From NCBI GenBank assembly GCA_022792555.1, contig JAAWBF010000086.1, forward strand, positions 1 through 64,000: a stretch of 64,000 nt of DNA, in the 5' to 3' direction. The translations under genes and the position numbers were made by a program. The notes below the pieces were generated by a model that did not search any database, was not told the origin of the DNA, and was given only the letters and a program-made list of their open reading frames with translations. The stretch is from Oscillospiraceae bacterium. GTDB lineage: Bacteria > Bacillota > Clostridia > Oscillospirales > Oscillospiraceae. Below are positions 35,085 through 54,690 of this stretch, piece by piece. The number at the start of each line of letters is the position of its first letter. The first letter of the stretch is position 1.

Positions 35085-36197
35085 TCAGCTCAACCGGATG
35101 ATGGTCAGGGAGGCCCCTGTGCCGCCGCCCACAAGAACAGCGGTTCCGACAATCGCGGTGAAGAGTTGCAGTGTAATGGTGGAGTTTGCGGGCAGGTTGA
35201 CTTTGATTTGGTTTTCAAAATTGGATGTGGATACCACCGGATTGATGGTAGAGGGGACGTTGTTCGCCCCATTAATCACCAGCCGGGTCCCCATCAGCAG
35301 GGCCAGGGTGGTATTTACATGGTAGGAAATCTGATAGGTGCCCGCTTCAGCCACGGTGAATACCGTATTCCCGGCGTTGACCGTAATATCGGGGGACAGG
35401 ACCTGGGCGTTGGGCAGAGCGATGGGAGTTCCAGCCGGTGCAACCAAGATACTGCTTCCCTGGGTGTTGGCTGCAAAGGCAGCGGTGGCGGTGGGATTAG
35501 GACCAGAGGCCCCTGTCGGGCCGGTGGGTCCGGTTGCACCAGTGGCGCCCGCTGCGCCGGCCGCGCCTACAATCCCGGCTAATCCTGCCGCGCCGTCCGG
35601 TCCAGTGGGTCCGGTTGCCCCAGTGGCTCCAATTGCTCCGTCTGGACCGGTGGGTCCGGCTGCCCCGGTGACACCAACAGCCCCAATGGGCCCCGCAGTG
35701 CCGGCAGGACCAACCGCGCCGTCCGGTCCAGTGGGTCCGGTAAGGCCCTGGGCGCCAGTGGGGCCCGTTGCACCAGTAGGACCGGTGGCGCCCGCTGCAC
35801 CAGCCGGACCGTCTGCCCCAGTGGGACCAGTGGTGCCAGTGGGACCAGTAGGGCCTTCAGCAGGGCCAGTGGGACCGGTAGGACCGATAGGACCGGTGGA
35901 ACCGATCGAAATCGGGGCGTTCATGGCCGCACTCAGCTTGGCGGTTAGCAGCGTCTGCTGTTCCATAATATTGGACAGCGTATTCTGCACACTCTGGTTG
36001 ACCTGCATAACCTCATCAAAGGCAGCAGCCTCCTCAAGGCCTGGCAGAGTGCCCAGGACATATTGCAGTTTTTCTCCCTCGGCGTTGAGGATGTGGCTTA
36101 GACTGAGTTCCTCTGCGGCAATGGACGCGATAATCTCATTGAGACTCCCCTCTCTGGTCAGAGGTGGATCGATTTTGGGAAACGTAGGAAGTGACAT
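35085..36197 (-). CDS. Collagen-like (GPTG repeat) BclA-type protein 1
   Basis: N-terminal leader, Gly-X-Thr/Y tract, C1q/BclA-like beta C-terminus. Confidence 0.9.
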
Positions 36198-36210
36198 GAG
36201 ACATCCCTCC

Positions 36211-37323
36211 TCAGCTCAGACGGGTGATGGTCAAAGATGCGCCAGCAGAGCCGGGCAGCAGCGTGGCCACAGAGGCGATGCCAAACATCTGTAGGGAAAC
36301 CGTATCTCCGGCGTTCAGGTCCAGCAGGATCTCGTTGGAAAAGTGACTGAGGGATACCAGAGGGGCCACAGTGGAGGCCGTATTGGCCACACCGTTGATC
36401 AAAAGCCGGGTACCGCTGGCCAGGGCCACGGTTGTGTTGATGTCGTAGGTTAGTTGGTAGCGTCCAGCTGTATTTACCGTAAACACCGTGTTTGCCCCAT
36501 TAACCGTGATATCGGGAGACAGGAGCTGGCTGTCTGGCAGAGGAACCAGAGTACCTGCCAGGATGACGGTCAACACAATGCCGCTGGTGTTGGCCGCAAA
36601 GGCGGAGGTGGCGGTGACGTTAGGGCCAGTGGGACCGGTTGGGCCAGTTACGCCAGCGATGCCGGTAGGTCCGGTGGCACCGGTGGCCCCAGTCGCGCCG
36701 GTGGCACCCACGGCACCGGCAGGGCCGGTGGCGCCAGTCGCGCCAGTTGCCCCAGTCGCGCCAGTAGGTCCGGTGGCACCGGTGGCCCCAGTCGCGCCGG
36801 TCACACCAGCAATACCAGCAGGACCGGTGGGGCCGGTCGCGCCAGTTGCACCGGCAGGACCGATGGCGCCGGCAGCGCCAGCAGCACCGTCAGCACCAGT
36901 GGGCCCAGTGGGCCCAGTTACACCAGTTGCACCGGTGGGACCGGTTGCACCAGTAGGCCCGGTGGCCCCAATGGGTCCTCCGGCAGGGCCAGTTGCCCCA
37001 GTAGGACCAGTGGGCCCGGTGGGACCCTGCATAGGAGAGGCCGTCAGAGCGCCCTGCATTTTCGCTTTCAGGAAGAGTTGGTTTTGTACCGCAGTCTCCA
37101 GCATACTGCGGACGCTCTCGTTGGCGGAGAGTACATCGCTGACCGTGGCGGGAGGGCCGCTAAGGCCAGGCAGGGTTCCGAGAATATATTGCAATTTCTC
37201 ACCCTCAGCGTTGAGGATGTGGCTCAATCCGAGCTCCTCCATGGCAATGGAGGAGAGAATTTGATTTACCGCGTCTTCCCGCTGGATAGGCGGATCAACA
37301 GTGGGAAAGCTGGGCAGAGACAT
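36211..37323 (-). CDS. Collagen-like (GPTG repeat) BclA-type protein 2
   Basis: Paralogue of the adjacent gene with the same N-terminal and C-terminal domains. Confidence 0.9.
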
Positions 37324-42253: not shown

Positions 42254-43378
42254 TCATTCGCCGCGCTCCAGTCCGGCCATGAAGGCCGCCTTGTTCTCCT
42301 GGGGCGTGGTGCTGGGACGGCCCAAATCGTCTCGCGCCCCCAGTGCGCACTTTACCTCGATAAAAGTAAGCTCATAGGACGCTTTTGCCGCCTCTAGCGC
42401 CTCGTCCAATCCCTCTAGGCTGTCCACGGACAAGGCGGAGGGATAGCCGCAGGCCCGGGCGATGGCGGACAGGTCCACAGCCCCCGCCGCCGTGGGCATA
42501 CCGCCCACCGACTCGTGGGCTTGATTGTTCAGCACGATGTGAATCAGGTTGGCGGTCTTATTCACCCCAATGAGCGCCATAGCCCCCATGTGCATCAGCG
42601 CCGCGCCATCCCCGTCCAGACACCACACCCGGCGCTCCGGCCTCTGCAGGGCGATGCCCAGGGCGATGGACGAGCTGTGGCCCATGGAACCCACCGTCAG
42701 GAAGTCATGGCCGTGGCCCTGGCTTCCAGCCTCCCTCAGCTCGTACACCTCCCGGCTGGCCTTGCCCGTAGTGGATATCACCAGGTCGTCTCCAGAGGAC
42801 GCTAAAATGTGCCCGATGGCCTCTTCCCGGCCCATGGGATGCCCGTTGGCGGGATTTGGCCTGCTCTTGTAGTCCAACGCACCCTTGCGTACCACAAAGG
42901 CCGCCTGCCTGCCCTGGGCCAGCAGGGCGCGGTACTCGTCCAGCTTGGCGGCAACCTGCTCTGCGGCAGTGGTCTTGTCGATGACAAAGGCAGGAATGTC
43001 CAGATTGTCCAGCAGGGGCAGGGTGATCTCCCCCTGGAATATGTGCTGGGGCTCGTCATGCACCCCCGGCTCCCCCCGCCAGCCCACGACGAACAGGCAG
43101 GGAATGCCGTACACCTTTTCGTTGAGCAGAGACGCCACCGGGTTCACCATGTTTCCCAGGCCGCTGTTTTGCAGATAGACCACCGGGGTTTTCCCCGTGG
43201 CCAGGTGATAGCCCGCCGCAAGGCCCACAGCGTTCCCCTCGTTGGCCGCAATGATGTGGTGGACGGGGTCGGTACCGTACACGTCCATCAGATAATTACA
43301 CAACGCCTTCAGTTGGGAATCCGGCACGCCGGCGTAAAAATCCGCGCCCAAAAGCCCTACAAAGTCTTCGATCTTCAA
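42254..43378 (-). CDS. aepY: Phosphonopyruvate decarboxylase
   Basis: ThDP-enzyme: GVPDSQLKALCNYLMD, AANEGNAVGLAAGYHLATGKTPVVYLQNSGLGN, GDGAALMHMGAMALIG. Confidence 0.92.
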   Translation of the reverse strand: MKIEDFVGLLGADFYAGVPDSQLKALCNYLMDVYGTDPVHHIIAANEGNAVGLAAGYHLATGKTPVVYLQNSGLGNMVNPVASLLNEKVYGIPCLFVVGWRGEPGVHDEPQHIFQGEITLPLLDNLDIPAFVIDKTTAAEQVAAKLDEYRALLAQGRQAAFVVRKGALDYKSRPNPANGHPMGREEAIGHILASSGDDLVISTTGKASREVYELREAGSQGHGHDFLTVGSMGHSSSIALGIALQRPERRVWCLDGDGAALMHMGAMALIGVNKTANLIHIVLNNQAHESVGGMPTAAGAVDLSAIARACGYPSALSVDSLEGLDEALEAAKASYELTFIEVKCALGARDDLGRPSTTPQENKAAFMAGLERGE

Positions 43379-43401
43379 AGGCAGGTCCCCCTCTGTCTGT
43401 T

Positions 43402-44697
43402 TTACAGCTCATCAATCAGGCTAATGATCTCCTTAACGGGCATCAGCCGGTCGTCCACCTCCTTCGCCCGGTGGTAGCGCAGGATGTCCTCTGCGGTCCG
43501 CTGCATGGCCGGGAAGGCGCTGCGGGTGAGCTGGTTGGCATAGATGACGATGTTTACCCCATGGGCGGCCAACATATCCTCCGTGACGGCGTTGAAGGAG
43601 GTGGGCACCACCACGATGGGCGTGTGCTTGTCCCCAGCCCGAAACCGGTCGCAGAACTCCAAAATCTCCGCCGGGTCTTTTTTCCGGCTGTGGATCATGA
43701 TGCCGTCCGCCCCCGCCTCCACAAAAGCGGAGGCCCGCCCCAGCGCATCCTCCATCCCCCGCTCCAGAATCAGGCTCTCAATCCGGGCGATGATCATAAA
43801 GTCGTCGGTGAGCTGGGCCCGCTTCCCCGCCCGGATTTTTTCGCTGAAGCTCTCGATATCGTCCTGGGTCTGCTCCACCTCGGTACCGAACAGGCTGTTC
43901 TTTTTCAGCCCCTTTTTGTCCTCGATAATCACGGCGGACACCCCCATGCGCTCCAGTGTGCGCACGTTATACATAAAGTGCTCCGCCAGCCCTCCGGTGT
44001 CTCCGTCTAGGATAATGGGCTTTGTCGTGACCTCCATGATATCGTCGATGGTGCGCAGCCGGGAGGACAGGTCTACCAGCTCAATGTCTGGCTTGCCCTT
44101 GGCGGTGGAGTCGCACAAACTGCTCACCCACATGGCGTCGAATTGGTCCAGTCGGCCGTCCTGGGCCACCACCGTTTTCTCTGCGATAAGCCCTGTTAGG
44201 CCGCTGTGGGTCTCCAGCGCCTTAACAACCGGGCGCAGACCGAGAAGCTGACGCAGCCGCTTCCGGCGGTACTCCGGCATGGCCAGCTTCTCCCGCAGCT
44301 GTTGGTCCACCTTTCTAACCTGCTCGCTGCTGGTATAGGGCACCTCAATGAGCTGTCCGCCCATGGCCTCCAGCTTTTCCTTCACTTGGGCCCGGATGAC
44401 AGACTCCGGCCCGGTCCGCCAGTTATCCCCGTGGATGACGTAATCCGGGCGGATGAGGGCCAGCACATCCTCATAGAGCATATCATCCTGAATAACCACA
44501 TTAGTAACTCCATCCAGCCTGCGATAGAGCCGGACCCGCTCATCCTGGGGGATGGTGGGGAAGCGGTTGTAGCGGATCAACGCCTGGTCGGACAGCGCAC
44601 CCACAATGACCTTGCCATAACGCTGGGCCGCCCGGATGATATTTAGGTGCCCCTCGTGGATGACCTCAGTGCAGAAGCAGGTATATACGGTTTCCAT
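43402..44697 (-). CDS. aepX: Phosphoenolpyruvate mutase with N-terminal cytidylyltransferase-like domain
   Basis: EGHLNIIRAAQRYGKVIVGALSD nucleotidyltransferase; PEP mutase core IIEDKKGLKKNSLFG, GADGIMIHSRKKDPAEILEF. Confidence 0.93.
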   Translation of the reverse strand: METVYTCFCTEVIHEGHLNIIRAAQRYGKVIVGALSDQALIRYNRFPTIPQDERVRLYRRLDGVTNVVIQDDMLYEDVLALIRPDYVIHGDNWRTGPESVIRAQVKEKLEAMGGQLIEVPYTSSEQVRKVDQQLREKLAMPEYRRKRLRQLLGLRPVVKALETHSGLTGLIAEKTVVAQDGRLDQFDAMWVSSLCDSTAKGKPDIELVDLSSRLRTIDDIMEVTTKPIILDGDTGGLAEHFMYNVRTLERMGVSAVIIEDKKGLKKNSLFGTEVEQTQDDIESFSEKIRAGKRAQLTDDFMIIARIESLILERGMEDALGRASAFVEAGADGIMIHSRKKDPAEILEFCDRFRAGDKHTPIVVVPTSFNAVTEDMLAAHGVNIVIYANQLTRSAFPAMQRTAEDILRYHRAKEVDDRLMPVKEIISLIDEL

Positions 44698-44709
44698 GGC
44701 CGTCCCTCC

Positions 44710-45840
44710 TCAACTGTCATACCGGACGGGCACGGCCACGCCGTATTCGTCCAGCGCCTGACGGAATACCTTAAAAAACGCTTGGATGTCCGGCGCGTCG
44801 ATGGCGCCCAGGGCGCACAGGCGGAAGGTCCCCGCCGTGCCCACCTTGCCGGGGTAGATGGTGAAGCCCCGCGCATAGCAGTAGTCGTGGACCCGTTGGA
44901 AATCCCAGTTGGGGTCGCCGGGATTGCGTACCGCCGCCACAAGGCCCACCTGCCAGTCCCGCCGGATGCTCTCTTGAAAGCCCAACGCCTCCAGTCCGGC
45001 GTGGATGGCGTCCATGGTCCGGGTGTGCCGGGCCCACTTGGCCTGCTCCCCCTCTGCCCAGTACTCCTTCATGGCCTGGATGGCGGCGTATACTGTCTGC
45101 ACTGGAGGGGTGAACTCCATCTCCCCGGTGCGCTCAAAGCAGTCGTACTGGCGGAACAGGTTGGCGTAGTAGGAGCGGCGGGGGTAGTCCTTAGAAATTT
45201 TCACGAGCTCCCGCCGTCCGATTACAAAGGACAAACCTGTCATGGCCATCAGCCCCTTCTGGGCGGAGGCCATGCAGAAGTCGATGTTGTCCGCCTCGAT
45301 ATCAATGGGCCGCATGGCATAGGTGCTGGTAGTGTCGGTGACAAAAACCGCTCCATATTGATGGACCAGCGCCCCCAGTTCCCGGATGGGGTTAAGTAGG
45401 CCGGCTCCTGTCTCGCTGTGGGTGGCGTATACCAGGGCGGTATCCGGGTTGGCCCGCAGGGCCTTATCCACCGCCTCCAGGTCCGCCGGGCAGTCATAGG
45501 GCAGCTTCAGCTCCACGTGGGGCAGGCAGTAGGCCCGACAGATCTCCACAGCCCGGGCGCTGTACGCCCCGTTGTGGATGATGAGTGCCTTCTTCCCCCC
45601 TGGCAGCAGGGAGTTGAGGCACACGTCCATGCACAGCGTCCCCGACCCGCAGAACAGTACCGAGGTGTACCGCTCTGGGTTCCCATGGACTACCCGTACC
45701 AAATCCTCCCGCAGGCCCGCCATCATATTGGCAAATTCCTTTTCCCGGGGGCAGATGTCTGGTGTCACCTGGGCCAGCTTTACTGTGTCCGTGGTAGTGG
45801 CGGGACCGGGATTAAGAAGAATATTCCGTTTGATATCCAT
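44710..45840 (-). CDS. phnW: 2-aminoethylphosphonate--pyruvate transaminase
   Basis: ILLNPGPATTTDTVKLAQVTPDICPREKEF; GSGTLCMDVCLNSLLPGGKKALIIHNGAYSAR. Confidence 0.93.
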   Translation of the reverse strand: MDIKRNILLNPGPATTTDTVKLAQVTPDICPREKEFANMMAGLREDLVRVVHGNPERYTSVLFCGSGTLCMDVCLNSLLPGGKKALIIHNGAYSARAVEICRAYCLPHVELKLPYDCPADLEAVDKALRANPDTALVYATHSETGAGLLNPIRELGALVHQYGAVFVTDTTSTYAMRPIDIEADNIDFCMASAQKGLMAMTGLSFVIGRRELVKISKDYPRRSYYANLFRQYDCFERTGEMEFTPPVQTVYAAIQAMKEYWAEGEQAKWARHTRTMDAIHAGLEALGFQESIRRDWQVGLVAAVRNPGDPNWDFQRVHDYCYARGFTIYPGKVGTAGTFRLCALGAIDAPDIQAFFKVFRQALDEYGVAVPVRYDS

Positions 45841-45857
45841 ACAGATTCCTCCTTCGT

Positions 45858-46742
45858 TCAGCCGATATCGTAGCTCCTGTCTAACTCCTTCAGCTCGCGG
45901 AAAGTATCGATCTCGGTGACATCCCTGTCCTCACAGGAACGCACAGCCACGCGGTAGTTCTCCCGGCAAAATACCAGCGGTACCTGCTCCCAGTACCGCT
46001 CCCGCCCGCCAGGTTGCTCATAGACCTCTTTGAGGTCCTGGGCCAGCTTTTCCCCGTCCACTCCATTCCAGTAGGAGATACCTACCATCTGCCAGCAGCG
46101 CTCACCGCCAATTTTTTCCTGGGTAATGACGCCATCGGACACCTCGAAGCACCAGTCGTCGGTACGCTCCTTGGGGATGGCCAGAAAGTTGGAGCGGTAC
46201 TGGTAAGGCTGGATGAGCCAGGGCGAATAGAGCACCAAATCGGCCTCCAGCACATAGGCGTTGGACATCAGATGCCGGGCGCACATGGCGGAGGAGATGT
46301 TGTTGGTCTCGTTGTAGACCGGGTTTTCCAGGAATCGAATCATGGGGTATTGGTAGAGGAGCTGGTCGAACTGCTCCGCCAGATAGCCCCGGACCAGATA
46401 GATCTCCTCAATTCCGGCGGCCAGACAGGCGTCCAGCAGGCTGTCAATGATGCGTTTGCCGTGAACCCGTACCAGGGGCTTAGGGGTGTTGAAGGTGATG
46501 GGGGCCAGACGGCTGCCAAAGCCCGCCGCCAGAAACACCGCCCGCTTGACCTGGTAGGGCTCCATGGCAGCCCGTCCCGCCGGGGTGGGCTGGCCGTGAG
46601 CCAGATAGCCCATTGTCTCCAATTCCTGGGCTGCGGCAGAGTTCAGCCAGGGGGCAGGTCCGCCAGCGGGGGCGATCAGCTCCAGAAGTAGTTCAAACTG
46701 CGGTTTGGTCAGAGTGCGCGGCATAGGTACATCCCTCCCCAC
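45858..46742 (-). CDS. LicC/PntC-like cytidylyltransferase with N-terminal winged-helix-like domain
   Basis: AVFLAAGFGSRLAPITFNTPKPLVRVHGKRIIDSLLDAC; adjacent to AEP biosynthesis genes. Confidence 0.85.
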   Translation of the reverse strand: MGRDVPMPRTLTKPQFELLLELIAPAGGPAPWLNSAAAQELETMGYLAHGQPTPAGRAAMEPYQVKRAVFLAAGFGSRLAPITFNTPKPLVRVHGKRIIDSLLDACLAAGIEEIYLVRGYLAEQFDQLLYQYPMIRFLENPVYNETNNISSAMCARHLMSNAYVLEADLVLYSPWLIQPYQYRSNFLAIPKERTDDWCFEVSDGVITQEKIGGERCWQMVGISYWNGVDGEKLAQDLKEVYEQPGGRERYWEQVPLVFCRENYRVAVRSCEDRDVTEIDTFRELKELDRSYDIG

Positions 46743-46897
46743 ATGGATGTGTGACCACTAAAATCTGTCAGCTTTTGTACAAATAGCAGTCAAAATAGAA
46801 TTGGTTATTCCAGTAATCCGGCATATCCACCGGGCAGATGAATGGATAGCCGCTTCCAGTTATTTTCTCTCGTTGTTGGTAGCATCTCTGTTTGTCT

Positions 46898-47413
46898 TTA
46901 GGTAAGGCCAAACTGCTTTTCCAGCCGTGTTACAATGGCCTCTGGAGTCTCTTGTCCATCGTTTTCCACTACAACATCCGGGGTCTTGGGCTCGTCATAG
47001 GGCAGGTCCACCCCGACTACCTCCTTTGCGCCGGAGGAGTAGAGCTGCTTCTGATCCCGGCGGTAGAGGGTTTCCTGGGTTACCTTGATGTAAATTTCCT
47101 TGTAATGCTCGATGTTGGCCCGGTTCCAGTCCCGGATCTCGTCATACATGGAAATGCTGCACATCACCACATCAATCCCCTGTTGGGCCAGGGCGCGGCA
47201 CAGATAAAACTGCTGTTTGGCGTCCTTTAGCCGGGCGGCGGTGGAGTACCCTGTGCGTTTGAATACGCCGTCCATGGCATCCCCGTCCATACAGAACACA
47301 TTGGCCTTTTTCGCCCTGAGCCGCCGGTAAAACAGCCCTCCAATGGTGGTCTTTCCCGCCCCAGCAAGGCCGGTGAAAAAATAGACGGTGCCTGTTTTGT
47401 TTTTTTCCTCCAA
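46898..47413 (-). CDS. Adenylyl-sulfate kinase-like protein
   Basis: GTVYFFTGLAGAGKTTIGGLFYRRL, FCMDGDAMDGVFKRTGYS; TTG start with GAGGAGG RBS. Confidence 0.8.
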   Translation of the reverse strand: MEEKNKTGTVYFFTGLAGAGKTTIGGLFYRRLRAKKANVFCMDGDAMDGVFKRTGYSTAARLKDAKQQFYLCRALAQQGIDVVMCSISMYDEIRDWNRANIEHYKEIYIKVTQETLYRRDQKQLYSSGAKEVVGVDLPYDEPKTPDVVVENDGQETPEAIVTRLEKQFGLT

Positions 47414-47426
47414 AATGGTGTCCTCC

Positions 47427-49442
47427 TCAGTGGTACAGGGGTTGATCCAGAAGCGCCGGATCAAGCTCCAGCTTGGGCATCATGCGCAGAGGCTGGCCGT
47501 TCTTGTTGATGAAATAGAGGCCATCGATCATCGCCTTGCCGATACGCAGGCGGATGGTGTCATTTTTCTTGCAGATTTGATCTAAAATTTTTTGTCTTAC
47601 TGTTTCATCCACTTCTTTTGATACATGTTCCCCTTCTACACTCACTCCAAATTTATCATCAGATAAAACATTATTTCTCCAACTCGTAGCGATGCGGCCA
47701 TTGATATTGGTGAAACCCTTCATCCATTCTTCCAACTGCTTCTCATCCACAGAACCTCCGTCATAATAGTGGAAATCGTAGCCATAGAATTGATAAGCAT
47801 CCCGAAGACAGAATTCAATATAGGCCCGTTCCTCGTCGGTGGCGTATTCATCATAAGTGCGGTACACCGTAGCAGTATCGAATCCCACCACATTGCCCTC
47901 CGCCGTCTCCACATCGTGGACGCCCTTCTCCGAGCAGTAGGTCATGCTCTCGGTATAGGGGAGATCCAAAAACGCCGCCAGGGCAGTAAAGGTAGCACGG
48001 GGATTGGTTTTGCCGTCCTCAAAACGCACCAGCACACTGTCTTTAAATAACCGATCTTCCGGGTCGATCATGAAGCTGCGGTTAGCCACCCGGTCTACCG
48101 TCAGGTCGGAGGTCACAACCATCTTTCCGTCCAACTCCTTGACATGGCTTCGCTTTTCCACTTGCCATCGTATGGTGGCTGCATAGCTGGTGGTCACCCG
48201 GCGTAAGGGGCTGAAGGTCTTGATATATTTGAACGCCTTGAACACGGAGGAGTTACGGATCCTATCATACTGATCTGACGTCAGTGTTGTTCGCCCTTTT
48301 TCGTCAGGGAACAGGTCATAGTCGATGTTGGAAAAGTGGGGCTGGAAGAATAGGGCGGGGTAGATCCGGGTGGCATGATCCAGACCACCTATATAGGTGT
48401 CCTGACTGAGAAAAACCGTTGTTAAAATGTCCTTATCCGAGCGACTGCCGCTCCAGTATAGCTTTTCCGCCAGCTTATTGTTGAAGGAAATACCAGTGGT
48501 GCCAGAGGTGCGCAGTTTATCCGCCCGGTCAAACTCCGACTTGTAGCTCTGGATGACCTCCTCAATATCGTCAAGCATAACAGAGGGCATACACAGCAGA
48601 TTTGGGTGGTTGTCGAATACCTCATTGAAAAAATCGCCGCCGTTGTCCGAAGACAGCTGGGTATGCCAGATAAGCCGTTGAACATCCTGGACACCAATGG
48701 GTTTCACCGGATATTGGCTGTAGTCAACGCCGTACTCCGCCTTGAAGTCAATCGGATAGCGGCTGATTTCTTGTCCAAATAGAAAGACAATTTTCTTTTT
48801 CTCTAAAATACGCCGAATGTTCAGCACCTGCAAATGGGCACAGAAAGTCTCCCAGCTGGCGTAGTGGAGATACAGGTGGTTCTCCCGTCCGATATCCTCG
48901 CTGGGGCGCACGTTGTCGTATAAATATTCCAGTTCATATTGTGAATAAACATCCTGGGCCAGGATGGGATTCTCTAAATCTTTGAAGAAATTCCGACTGA
49001 TTACCGGGTGGTTGAAATTTATATATTCTCCGAATTTTTGCCCCGCCAGGTCGAAGGGCAGATAGCCGTTGTCGTCGAAGGGATAGAAATGTAAAGGCAG
49101 GTCCTCAAATTTTGGAAAGTTTGTCTGGAACAAGTATGGATATTTGGCAAGAGCCGCGCAGTTTTTCTCATATCGAGTTTTCATTAGTTTGATATTGGGC
49201 GTGTAGAACGCATCTGTCATGATGTCCAGGCACTCGGCCTTGAACTGCCCCTCATGGTAGAGCTGGTTAAACTGGGTGTAAGCGACCTTGTAGTCTCCAC
49301 CCATCCGCAGCAGGTAGACGGCGGCCTCCAGCCGCTCCTCCGGATCCAATCCACCCTGATGCAGAGCCAATGTAAAGGCGTTACAAGCATCTGCGGTAAC
49401 ACCCAATTGTGCGCACCGGCGGGCAATGTCAATGGTTTGCAT
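47427..49442 (-). CDS. Sulfotransferase-like protein (671 aa)
   Basis: LIWHTQLSSDNGGDFFNEVFDNHPNLLCMPSVM (5'-PSB-like) and VLVRFEDGKTNPRATFTALAAFLDLPYTE (3'-PB-like). Confidence 0.6.
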   Translation of the reverse strand: MQTIDIARRCAQLGVTADACNAFTLALHQGGLDPEERLEAAVYLLRMGGDYKVAYTQFNQLYHEGQFKAECLDIMTDAFYTPNIKLMKTRYEKNCAALAKYPYLFQTNFPKFEDLPLHFYPFDDNGYLPFDLAGQKFGEYINFNHPVISRNFFKDLENPILAQDVYSQYELEYLYDNVRPSEDIGRENHLYLHYASWETFCAHLQVLNIRRILEKKKIVFLFGQEISRYPIDFKAEYGVDYSQYPVKPIGVQDVQRLIWHTQLSSDNGGDFFNEVFDNHPNLLCMPSVMLDDIEEVIQSYKSEFDRADKLRTSGTTGISFNNKLAEKLYWSGSRSDKDILTTVFLSQDTYIGGLDHATRIYPALFFQPHFSNIDYDLFPDEKGRTTLTSDQYDRIRNSSVFKAFKYIKTFSPLRRVTTSYAATIRWQVEKRSHVKELDGKMVVTSDLTVDRVANRSFMIDPEDRLFKDSVLVRFEDGKTNPRATFTALAAFLDLPYTESMTYCSEKGVHDVETAEGNVVGFDTATVYRTYDEYATDEERAYIEFCLRDAYQFYGYDFHYYDGGSVDEKQLEEWMKGFTNINGRIATSWRNNVLSDDKFGVSVEGEHVSKEVDETVRQKILDQICKKNDTIRLRIGKAMIDGLYFINKNGQPLRMMPKLELDPALLDQPLYH

Positions 49443-49477
49443 GGCGCGGCTTCCTTTCGTGTTTAATCAAAAGGAGA

Positions 49478-49493
49478 GCGGGCCGAAGCCCGC
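49478..49493 (-). terminator. Short GC hairpin gcgggc-ttcg-gcccgc downstream of flagellin
   Basis: Perfect 6-bp stem with UUCG loop followed on - strand by tctccttttgatt. Confidence 0.5.
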
Positions 49494-49537
49494 CCCCCCG
49501 GTTTGGGTTATGTGATTTTGCCGGAGTCTATTCCAAA

Positions 49538-51762: not shown

Positions 51763-51957
51763 TCAACTCCTTTTACAGTTCAGCGGTACGACAATCCCTT
51801 CTCCCGCTCTCAAAAGCCGCTCTCTGCGGCGTAGACGAAACAGTTCATCGTCATAATATTGGGGACACCCGCCACTGCCTGGCCCACGCAGTACAGGCGT
51901 TGGATTCTGGCAGAACGGCGCGCTTCCAGCGTGCGCACACACTGTCTCGTTTCCCAC
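51763..51957 (-). CDS. Small ORF possibly translationally coupled to csrA-like gene
   Basis: Ends ...IVVPLNCKRS* with the aaggag RBS of the next gene inside its last codons; GTG start uncertain. Confidence 0.3.
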   Translation of the reverse strand: MGNETVCAHAGSAPFCQNPTPVLRGPGSGGCPQYYDDELFRLRRRERLLRAGEGIVVPLNCKRS

Positions 51958-51974
51958 CCTTTGGCCCGGTGAAC

Positions 51975-52102
51975 GCTAATTGATACGGAATCCCTCGATT
52001 GCGCATCAATCAACGCTCCCGCAGCCGGAAAATGGGCGCTGACCGGCGTCCCAACCGGCGAGGCGGCGTCAGCCGCCGGTTCTAAGAAACTGTTTCAATC
52101 GA
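51975..52102 (-). ncRNA. Putative guide RNA scaffold (omegaRNA/TldR gRNA) downstream of nuclease-dead TnpB
   Basis: Structured - strand sequence aaccggcggctgacgccgcctcgccggttgggacgccggtcagcgc...ccggctgcgggagcgttgattgatgcgcaatcga. Blocks ggt(t)gggac..ccgg and ggctgcgg..gc(g)tga resemble the IS605-type right end at ~54486-54690. Confidence 0.4.
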
Positions 52103-53281
52103 TCAAGCGCTTTCTCGCTGCGCCTGTGTCCTGAAATATTGGTGCAGGCCCTGGGCCTTGATATTTTTGGCGGCGTTGACCTCCCGATTGTGGGCTGTAC
52201 CGCACTTGGGACAGGTCCAGGCAGTTTCCCTGGCGCCCAGCTCCTCCCGGACCAGTCCACAGACCGAACAGGTCCGCGTGGTGGGGACATAGCGGTCCAC
52301 CACGAGGAACTGCTTCCCCTGCCGGGCCAGCTTGTATTGTAAGCATGTTCGGAATGCCCCAAATCCACCCTCCAACGTGTTCCCGCGCTTGACACGCTGG
52401 GACATCGCCTGAATGGAATCACCTCTCACACATATGGCGTCCCAGACGTTGGCTATCCGCCGGGATTCCTTATGAAGGAAGTCCTTTCGCTGATTGGCGA
52501 TGTGTTCATGGAGCAGACGGTATTTTTGAACCGCCTCTTGATAGTTCTTGGAACCGGGCTGCATCCGGGAGAGCTTTTGCTGGAGCTTGGTCAGCTTCTC
52601 CTGTGACTGCTTCAGCCAGCGGGGCGGATCGGCCATGGACCCATCGTCAGCCACATAAAAGTGCTGCATGGAGTATTTCAGACCGGCTGTCGTTTCTTCT
52701 GTTGGCACAACCGCTTGTGGCTTTTTGACCGCGCACTCGTACAGAATGGCACAGGTATATTTGCCGGTTCGAGTCTTTTCCACGGTGATGCGCTTGAGCT
52801 TCCACCAGGCTTGGGGGCGGCGGGAGAACTTCGCTTTCACAATCCCCGCCTTGGTCATGCGGATACCATCCTCTGTAATATAGATGGTGGGCCCAGATTC
52901 GAACTCATGATTGCACGCCGTAAACGAACTGTGGTCTGTTTTCTTTTTCTTAAATCTGGGATATCCAAAGGACTCCGGATTTTTGAAAAATACCCGGAAC
53001 GCCTGGGAGAGCTTATTGTGCTCCTGGATGAGGGCCTGATTGTCTACCTCCCTCAGAAATGGAGCGCCATTTTTATACTTGGCTGGGGTTGGAATGAAGT
53101 GCTTCCCCGTGGCGAGGTAAAAGTATTTCTGGTCTGAAAGCATTTGGTTCCAGATATACCGGCAGCAGCCGAAGGTCCTTTCAAACAGTTCTGTCTGAGC
53201 CTTATTCGGATAGAGCCGGACTTTGATGGTGTTATACTGGAGTATTTTGCCGTCTGCGACAGCAGCTTTCTTCCATGCCAT
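52103..53281 (-). CDS. TnpB-family protein with substituted RuvC catalytic residues (TldR candidate)
   Basis: 392 aa intact TnpB architecture with CSVC...CPKC zinc ribbon. RuvC motifs read AGLKYS, CVRGDSI and HNREVN. Confidence 0.9.
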   Translation of the reverse strand: MAWKKAAVADGKILQYNTIKVRLYPNKAQTELFERTFGCCRYIWNQMLSDQKYFYLATGKHFIPTPAKYKNGAPFLREVDNQALIQEHNKLSQAFRVFFKNPESFGYPRFKKKKTDHSSFTACNHEFESGPTIYITEDGIRMTKAGIVKAKFSRRPQAWWKLKRITVEKTRTGKYTCAILYECAVKKPQAVVPTEETTAGLKYSMQHFYVADDGSMADPPRWLKQSQEKLTKLQQKLSRMQPGSKNYQEAVQKYRLLHEHIANQRKDFLHKESRRIANVWDAICVRGDSIQAMSQRVKRGNTLEGGFGAFRTCLQYKLARQGKQFLVVDRYVPTTRTCSVCGLVREELGARETAWTCPKCGTAHNREVNAAKNIKAQGLHQYFRTQAQRESA

Positions 53282-53300
53282 GTCGTCCCGCTCCCCTCCG

Positions 53301-53330
53301 GGCCACGCAAAAGGTATGGGTTTTGCGTGG
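53301..53330. repeat. Inverted repeat IR-L of invertible segment
   Basis: GGCCACGCAAAAGGTATGGGTTTTGCGTGG; exact reverse complement of 53419-53448. Confidence 0.95.
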
Positions 53331-53418
53331 ACGGCTGAAAGGATAAATTTTTTTGAAATGGGGCTTAATTTTGCCTAATAAATGTCCGATACAAAGGGTG
53401 AACACAGTGGAAATAAGG
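53331..53418. other. Predicted 88-bp invertible DNA segment (inverton)
   Basis: Flanked by perfect 30-bp inverted repeats, 37 bp from the 3' end of a serine recombinase gene, contains a promoter. Confidence 0.8.
53366..53392 (+). promoter_or_regulatory. Sigma28/SigD-type promoter in current (OFF) orientation
   Basis: TAATTTTG-N11-TCCGATAC compared with consensus TAAAGTTT-N11-GCCGATAA. Confidence 0.65.
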
Positions 53419-53448
53419 CCACGCAAAACCCATACCTTTTGCGTGGCC
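53419..53448. repeat. Inverted repeat IR-R of invertible segment
   Basis: CCACGCAAAACCCATACCTTTTGCGTGGCC. Confidence 0.95.
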
Positions 53449-53485
53449 CTATTGCTGCATTTTATATTTCTGTCTTTTGTGGCGT

Positions 53486-54485: not shown

Positions 54486-54690
54486 ATTGACACTCCCCAC
54501 GGCTAAAGCCGGGGGATTCTCAGTTCAGCGACCGCAGCCTACACCAGCGAGGTCTTATATGGTCTCCACGAGCGTTCGGTTCCGGTGTGTCCCACCGTAC
54601 CATATGTACCGGCTACGCCAGCTTCATAAGCTCGGCGTGGCGGGCCATGCGTAACTGGACAGCAAAACTCGTCTATGATGTCACAAGGGA
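54486..54690 (-). mobile_element. IS200/IS605-type right end / omegaRNA remnant without tnpB
   Basis: - strand ...ggtgggacacaccggaaccgaacgc...ggctgcggtcgctgaactgagaatcccccggctttagccgtggggagtgtcaa. Confidence 0.65.

Follow-up and report, generated by a model that had tools for sequence, protein, structure and literature searches.

A predicted Hin-type flagellin switch with an invertible sigma28 promoter and an RNA-guided repressor in an Oscillospiraceae bacterium

The 64,000-nucleotide stretch of DNA analysed here (hereafter the window) carries, in the order of its minus strand, the gene for a serine recombinase, a short repeat-bounded segment, and the genes for a TnpB homologue, a CsrA-family protein and a flagellin. 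The segment, located between hin and tldR, contains a putative sigma28 promoter, and since the operon genes lie on the minus strand and the promoter on the plus strand, the promoter faces away from the operon. Based on the present data, we consider it very probable that the locus is a Hin-type phase-variation cassette, in which flipping of the sigma28 promoter drives tldR, csrA and the flagellin gene, together with repression of a stand-alone flagellin. The hin-like gene is located directly upstream of tldR, and both csrA and fliC lie less than 3 kb from tldR (Table 1).

Table 1. Features of the cassette, with their positions in the window.
Feature	Position	Strand	Basis
Hin-like serine recombinase (invertase), 211 aa	53486..54121	-	PF00239 E=2.2e-28
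Inverted repeat arm beside the recombinase gene, presumed crossover site; self-dyad CCACGCAAAA-CCCATACC-TTTTGCGTGG	53419..53449	.	
Putative sigma28/SigD-type promoter in OFF orientation, TTAATTTT-N12-TCCGATAC or TAATTTTG-N11-TCCGATAC	53365..53392	+	
88-bp segment, predicted to be invertible	53331..53418	.	repeats; inversion in orthologous loci of relatives
Inverted repeat arm beside tldR, presumed crossover site	53300..53330	.	
TldR: TnpB homologue whose RuvC catalytic residues are substituted (GLKYS, AICVRGD, HNREVNAA)	52103..53281	-	
Guide RNA scaffold 3' of tldR	51863..52102	-	conserved across loci
Predicted guide CCAATATTATGACGATG	51846..51862	-	
CsrA-family gene, 121 aa	51391..51756	-	PF02599 E=1.5e-13
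Cassette flagellin MRIQHNIMAMS..., 568 aa	49538..51244	-	PF00669, PF00700
Terminator-like hairpin 3' of the flagellin gene	49472..49499	-	

The hairpin 3' of the flagellin gene probably marks the end of the operon. Right behind the flagellin gene lie aminoethylphosphonate pathway genes (42254-47464, minus strand), which encode a PEP mutase-cytidylyltransferase, a phosphonopyruvate decarboxylase, an AEP transaminase, an NTP transferase and an APS-kinase-like protein, and which possibly serve the modification of the surface or of flagellin. Because the strong terminator-like hairpin intervenes, the idea that they are part of the flagellin operon was rejected for now. The interval between the flagellin and phosphonate genes also encodes a 671-aa protein (47427-49442, minus strand) that has no match in Pfam or NCBIfam, and two neighbouring collagen-like proteins with GPTGPT repeats are encoded at 35085-37323 (minus strand). 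On the other side of the cassette, at about 54490-54530, there is a remnant resembling an IS200/IS605 right end, and many TnpB fragments are found at contig ends of this assembly.

The promoter motif was scored with a matrix for which 38 promoter-like sites from other genomes were used; these were drawn from the same set of relatives as described below and included none from this genome. The 27 bases at 53366-53392 (plus strand) are TAATTTTGCCTAATAAATGTCCGATAC, exactly as quoted in the initial annotation, and the CCGATA core is intact. They fall between the perfect 31-bp arms and read antisense to the recombinase gene, as had been proposed. The initial annotation had also attributed to this motif the exact 11-bp spacer of the sigma28 consensus, but this depends on the register. 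When the site is read against the sigma28 pattern of a TAAA-like -35 element, an 11-bp spacer and a GCCGATAA-like -10 element, the N11 register scores 11.0 bits and ranks fourth in the window, and the N12 register, which starts with TTAATTTT at 53365, scores 19.9 and ranks first in the 64 kb (the next best site scores 15.7). TTAATTTT is the -35 register common to the relatives, and since the motif becomes the best site in this register, the claim of an exact spacer is doubtful and the spacer is better read as 12 bp. The -10 element deviates from the consensus at its first base (T for G) and its last base (C for A). The sites of two sister cassettes in the same genome reach 19.7 and 23.5, compared to 16.7 for the promoter of the stand-alone flagellin, all with a spacer of 11. 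The window's own motif, with its N12 spacing and T as the first -10 base, is among the weaker ones. Taken alone, it exceeds chance only moderately, and its sequence suggests a credible promoter, yet not a consensus one.

The same position was examined in related loci. Scanning of GTDB species genomes yielded 80 loci with a gene for a relative of the TnpB-like protein. Together with the three cassettes of the window's genome, 74 loci had enough upstream DNA. A sigma28-type site with a score of at least 13 within 350 bp upstream of tldR was found at 63/74 of these loci, compared to 1/144 control windows inside tldR genes (counts uncorrected for phylogeny), which removes chance as an explanation of the motif. 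A matrix-free count of consensus positions gave at least 12/16 matches in 43/74 upstream regions, in 1/72 control stretches and in 6/222 shuffles. Flanking inverted repeats were detected at 49 of the 63 loci. A few relatives, L045, L046, L055 and L077 among them, lack a sigma28 site within this 350-bp distance of tldR. The sites occur in both orientations, 20 facing tldR (ON) and 43 facing away from it (OFF); the excess of OFF states in the assemblies may be a biological or an assembly effect.

The arms of the window are 31 bp each, reverse-complementary at 31/31 positions (100%) and 88 nt apart, and each arm also has a dyad symmetry of its own (CCACGCAAAA-8-TTTTGCGTGG). The neighbouring recombinase has the serine recombinase catalytic domain and the short C-terminal HTH of Hin/Gin invertases. 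Its nearest solved relatives are Sin, gamma-delta and Gin/Hin-type invertases, and it is full length, aligning to Sin over residues 6-192. Inversion was observed when orthologous loci of different genomes were compared. The flanks of L099 and L112 are collinear at 96.5% and 91.5% identity, while the 121 bp between them are reverse-complemented at 100%, and those of L073 and L093 are collinear at 99.6% and 99.1%, with 152 bp reversed at 96%. This shows that segment inversion happens in the cassette family, and we infer that the segment also flips in the window's own strain. Loci with more similar half-sites also have more similar C-termini of their recombinases (26 loci; Mantel r=0.51, 0/2000 permutations); one relative, L049, has half-sites identical to those of the window arm and a recombinase that is 78% identical. 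The segment and arms of the window have no match among the contigs of a viral collection. It is highly improbable, and for the family already largely refuted, that the motif arose by chance and that the repeats, instead of being recombination sites, form a hairpin that acts as a terminator or attenuator between hin and tldR, as the mere fourth rank of the spacer-11 motif and the capacity of each self-dyadic arm to form a hairpin might suggest, given the inverted segments between collinear flanks in two ortholog pairs, the recurrence of the motif at homologous positions, the co-variation of half-sites with recombinase C-termini, and the presence of two distant inverted copies that a terminator would not need.

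Two further cassettes are present in the genome of the window. In the second cassette, C168, the promoter faces tldR and the flagellin gene is cut by the contig end. The third, C36 (L036), is represented by its start; here the promoter points away from tldR, from which the recombinase gene diverges. The states of the three cassettes are OFF (C131), ON (C168) and OFF (C36). The repeats of the sister cassettes (TTTGTAAA.. and GTGCACAGAA..) differ from those of the window (CCACGCAAAA..), which makes three recombination-site types in one genome, and the three recombinases are 56-63% identical to each other. The ON state of C168 and the inverted ortholog pairs support the initial view that the window contains an invertible sigma28 promoter which is OFF as sequenced, and this is the best reading of the segment.

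The initial annotation had reported no clear SigD promoter before the flagellin gene, and in agreement with this a sense sigma28-type site scoring at least 14 was found within 200 bp ahead of the start codon in 0/73 cassette flagellins. Among the stand-alone flagellins of the same genomes, 31/38 have a sigma28-type site within 600 bp, and that of the window's genome, on contig C49, has the promoter-like site TAAACTTT-N11-GACGATAG. Because the cassette flagellins do not have a separate sigma28 site, the prediction that the sequenced state is OFF is a fair one. The promoter might instead serve mainly the recombinase gene, as a form of autoregulation, with the flagellin being expressed by read-through or from another promoter. 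C36 would fit this idea, as the divergent position of its recombinase gene means that hin would be read in sense from the promoter in its OFF state. In the window, however, hin is co-oriented with tldR, so that the OFF promoter is antisense to it, and in view of the cassette flagellins preceded by no sigma28 site of their own we consider autoregulation as the main role very unlikely. It is also unlikely, although somewhat less so, that the locus is frozen, with a decaying recombinase or promoter and the cassette kept as a silent flagellin reserve. The weaker -10 element and the altered spacing relative to the relatives would agree with such decay, but the full-length recombinase matches a family of solved structure over 187 residues, and the arms, identical at all 31 positions, are better than those of most relatives, which fits recent use by the recombinase.

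Compared to active TnpB structures, the TnpB homologue has GLK in place of GVD.. (GLKYS for the first D), R/G in place of E, and HNRE in place of HDRD; all RuvC catalytic positions (D, E, D) are replaced, as in TldR. The scaffold 3' of the gene consists of a GCCGGT..GACGCCGGT stem, a GCGTTGATTGATG..CAATTAGCGTT stem, GGTGGGAAACGAGA and a GTCC end, after which the guide follows. By sequence match, the guide corresponds to flagellin codons 5-10 (HNIMAM), and its 9-nt core AATATTATG matches codons 6-8 of the stand-alone fliC of contig C49 at every position; a scaffold and guide 3' of the gene and a target in a flagellin gene are thus both found, as for TldR. The promoter regions of other flagellins, compared with the guide region as candidate targets, gave no convincing match, the match lying in the reading frame instead.

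The corresponding codons of the cassette flagellin are AAT ATA ATG, which differ from the guide by a single synonymous change. When cassettes and genomes were compared, the 9-nt core was identical to that of a stand-alone flagellin in 26 of 31 comparisons and to that of the own cassette flagellin in 3 (Wilcoxon p 2e-6, uncorrected for phylogeny), and the latter three differ at guide position 2. Where guide cores are unusual, the same change is found in a stand-alone flagellin in three genomes (those of L046, L056 and L099). At guide position 12 the guides have A and the flagellin genes G (ATGACG versus ATGGCN), almost without exception. The simplest reading of the core comparisons is that the cassette flagellin would escape its own guide through synonymous changes. 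It should be noted here that stand-alone and cassette flagellins use different codons at positions 2-7, 9 and 11, and nearly the same ones from codon 12 onward. Instead of guide escape, the codon differences might have their origin in translation initiation, CsrA sites or gene-conversion boundaries, and this agrees with the extension of the divergence to codons 2-4, beyond the guide match, with the homogenised appearance of codon 12 onward, and with the cassette codons AGG ATT/ATC, which create a GGA close to the start. However, the guide core and the stand-alone target change together, to AATATTTTG in the genome of L099, AACATTATG in that of L046 and AACATCATG in that of L056, where the cassette flagellin has AATATTATG. 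We regard the explanation without guide escape as possible but rather doubtful; the divergence at codons 2-4 may be due to a target-adjacent motif, CsrA binding or initiation.

With escape from the guide as the preferred reading, the cassette can be described as follows. The serine recombinase would act on the two dyad repeats and flip the segment of about 88 bp with the sigma28 promoter. As sequenced, this promoter would read antisense into the recombinase gene and the tldR-csrA-flagellin operon would be off, and after inversion sigma28 RNA polymerase would presumably transcribe tldR, the guide RNA, csrA and the alternative flagellin gene. TldR with its guide would next bind the stand-alone flagellin gene on contig C49 at codons 5-10 and probably repress this gene, CsrA would hold back translation of the stand-alone flagellin, and the cassette flagellin would be spared because its target codons carry synonymous changes. 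The initial expectation that inversion directs the promoter into tnpB/tldR, the csrA-like gene and the flagellin gene stands, with the correction that an RNA-guided repressor of another flagellin would be turned on too. Because the repeats of the three cassettes differ and half-sites follow the recombinase C-termini across 26 loci, their sequences make it plausible that the cassettes switch independently. We see an even chance that the genome harbours several independent switches, in which each recombinase would flip its own repeat type only, cassettes would be ON singly or together, active ones would silence the stand-alone flagellin by RNA guide, and their own flagellins would be spared by synonymous codons. 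If this is true, self and non-self flagellins would be distinguished purely at silent sites.

In the Hin/fljBA system of Salmonella, a serine invertase acts on short inverted sites to flip a promoter that drives one flagellin gene and a repressor of the other. The window cassette shares with it a serine invertase, short inverted sites and a promoter for one flagellin and the repressor of the other, but its hin gene lies outside the inverted stretch of about 150 bp, its promoter is of the sigma28 type, and the place of the repressor FljA is taken by the RNA-guided TldR plus CsrA. Chromosomal csrA-tldR-fliC loci, most with hin upstream, have been described in Oscillibacter and others; the TldRs of such loci bind within fliC reading frames and CsrA the fliC leader, and RNA-guided DNA binding and repression have been demonstrated for TldR homologues (Walker et al. 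2026, PMC13418256). In Flavonifractor plautii, inversions of about 120 bp carry a FliA-dependent promoter (PMC13418256). The window cassette belongs to this known kind, having the same gene order with hin, a predicted FliA-promoter inverton, tldR, guide RNA, csrA and fliC as the Oscillibacter and Flavonifractor plautii loci, and the same aim of the guide into fliC reading frames (PMC13418256). It differs from these loci in that its genome has three cassettes with three recombination-site types in mixed orientations and that the spacer of its promoter is 12 bp long in the family register. The main text of PMC13418256 makes no mention of an escape of cassette flagellins through synonymous codons. 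In the flagellin-remodelling prophage system TldR-FliCP of Enterobacter, TldR likewise represses one flagellin, that of the host, and an alternative flagellin is supplied; unlike the window cassette it is phage-borne and targets the fliC promoter region, and the text describes no invertible promoter for it (PMC13418256). The flagellar switch of Clostridioides difficile is similar in its site-specific inversion upstream of flagellar genes, but the RecV system, located upstream of flgB, acts on the flgB operon, whereas the window cassette concerns an alternative flagellin and an RNA-guided repressor (PMC7446863, abstract).

To the known kind the present data add how broadly the promoter is conserved, the coexistence of different states and repeat types within one genome, and the silent-site difference between the target and the own flagellin. 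They indicate from many further genomes that a group of gut Oscillospiraceae links DNA inversion, RNA-guided repression and CsrA to flagellin choice, in an arrangement that amounts to a Salmonella-like antigen switch built from different parts. The silent-site pattern provides a simple, testable rule for the flagellins that are spared by a guide, and because the repeat types within one genome differ, sequencing could directly test whether flagellins are expressed combinatorially.
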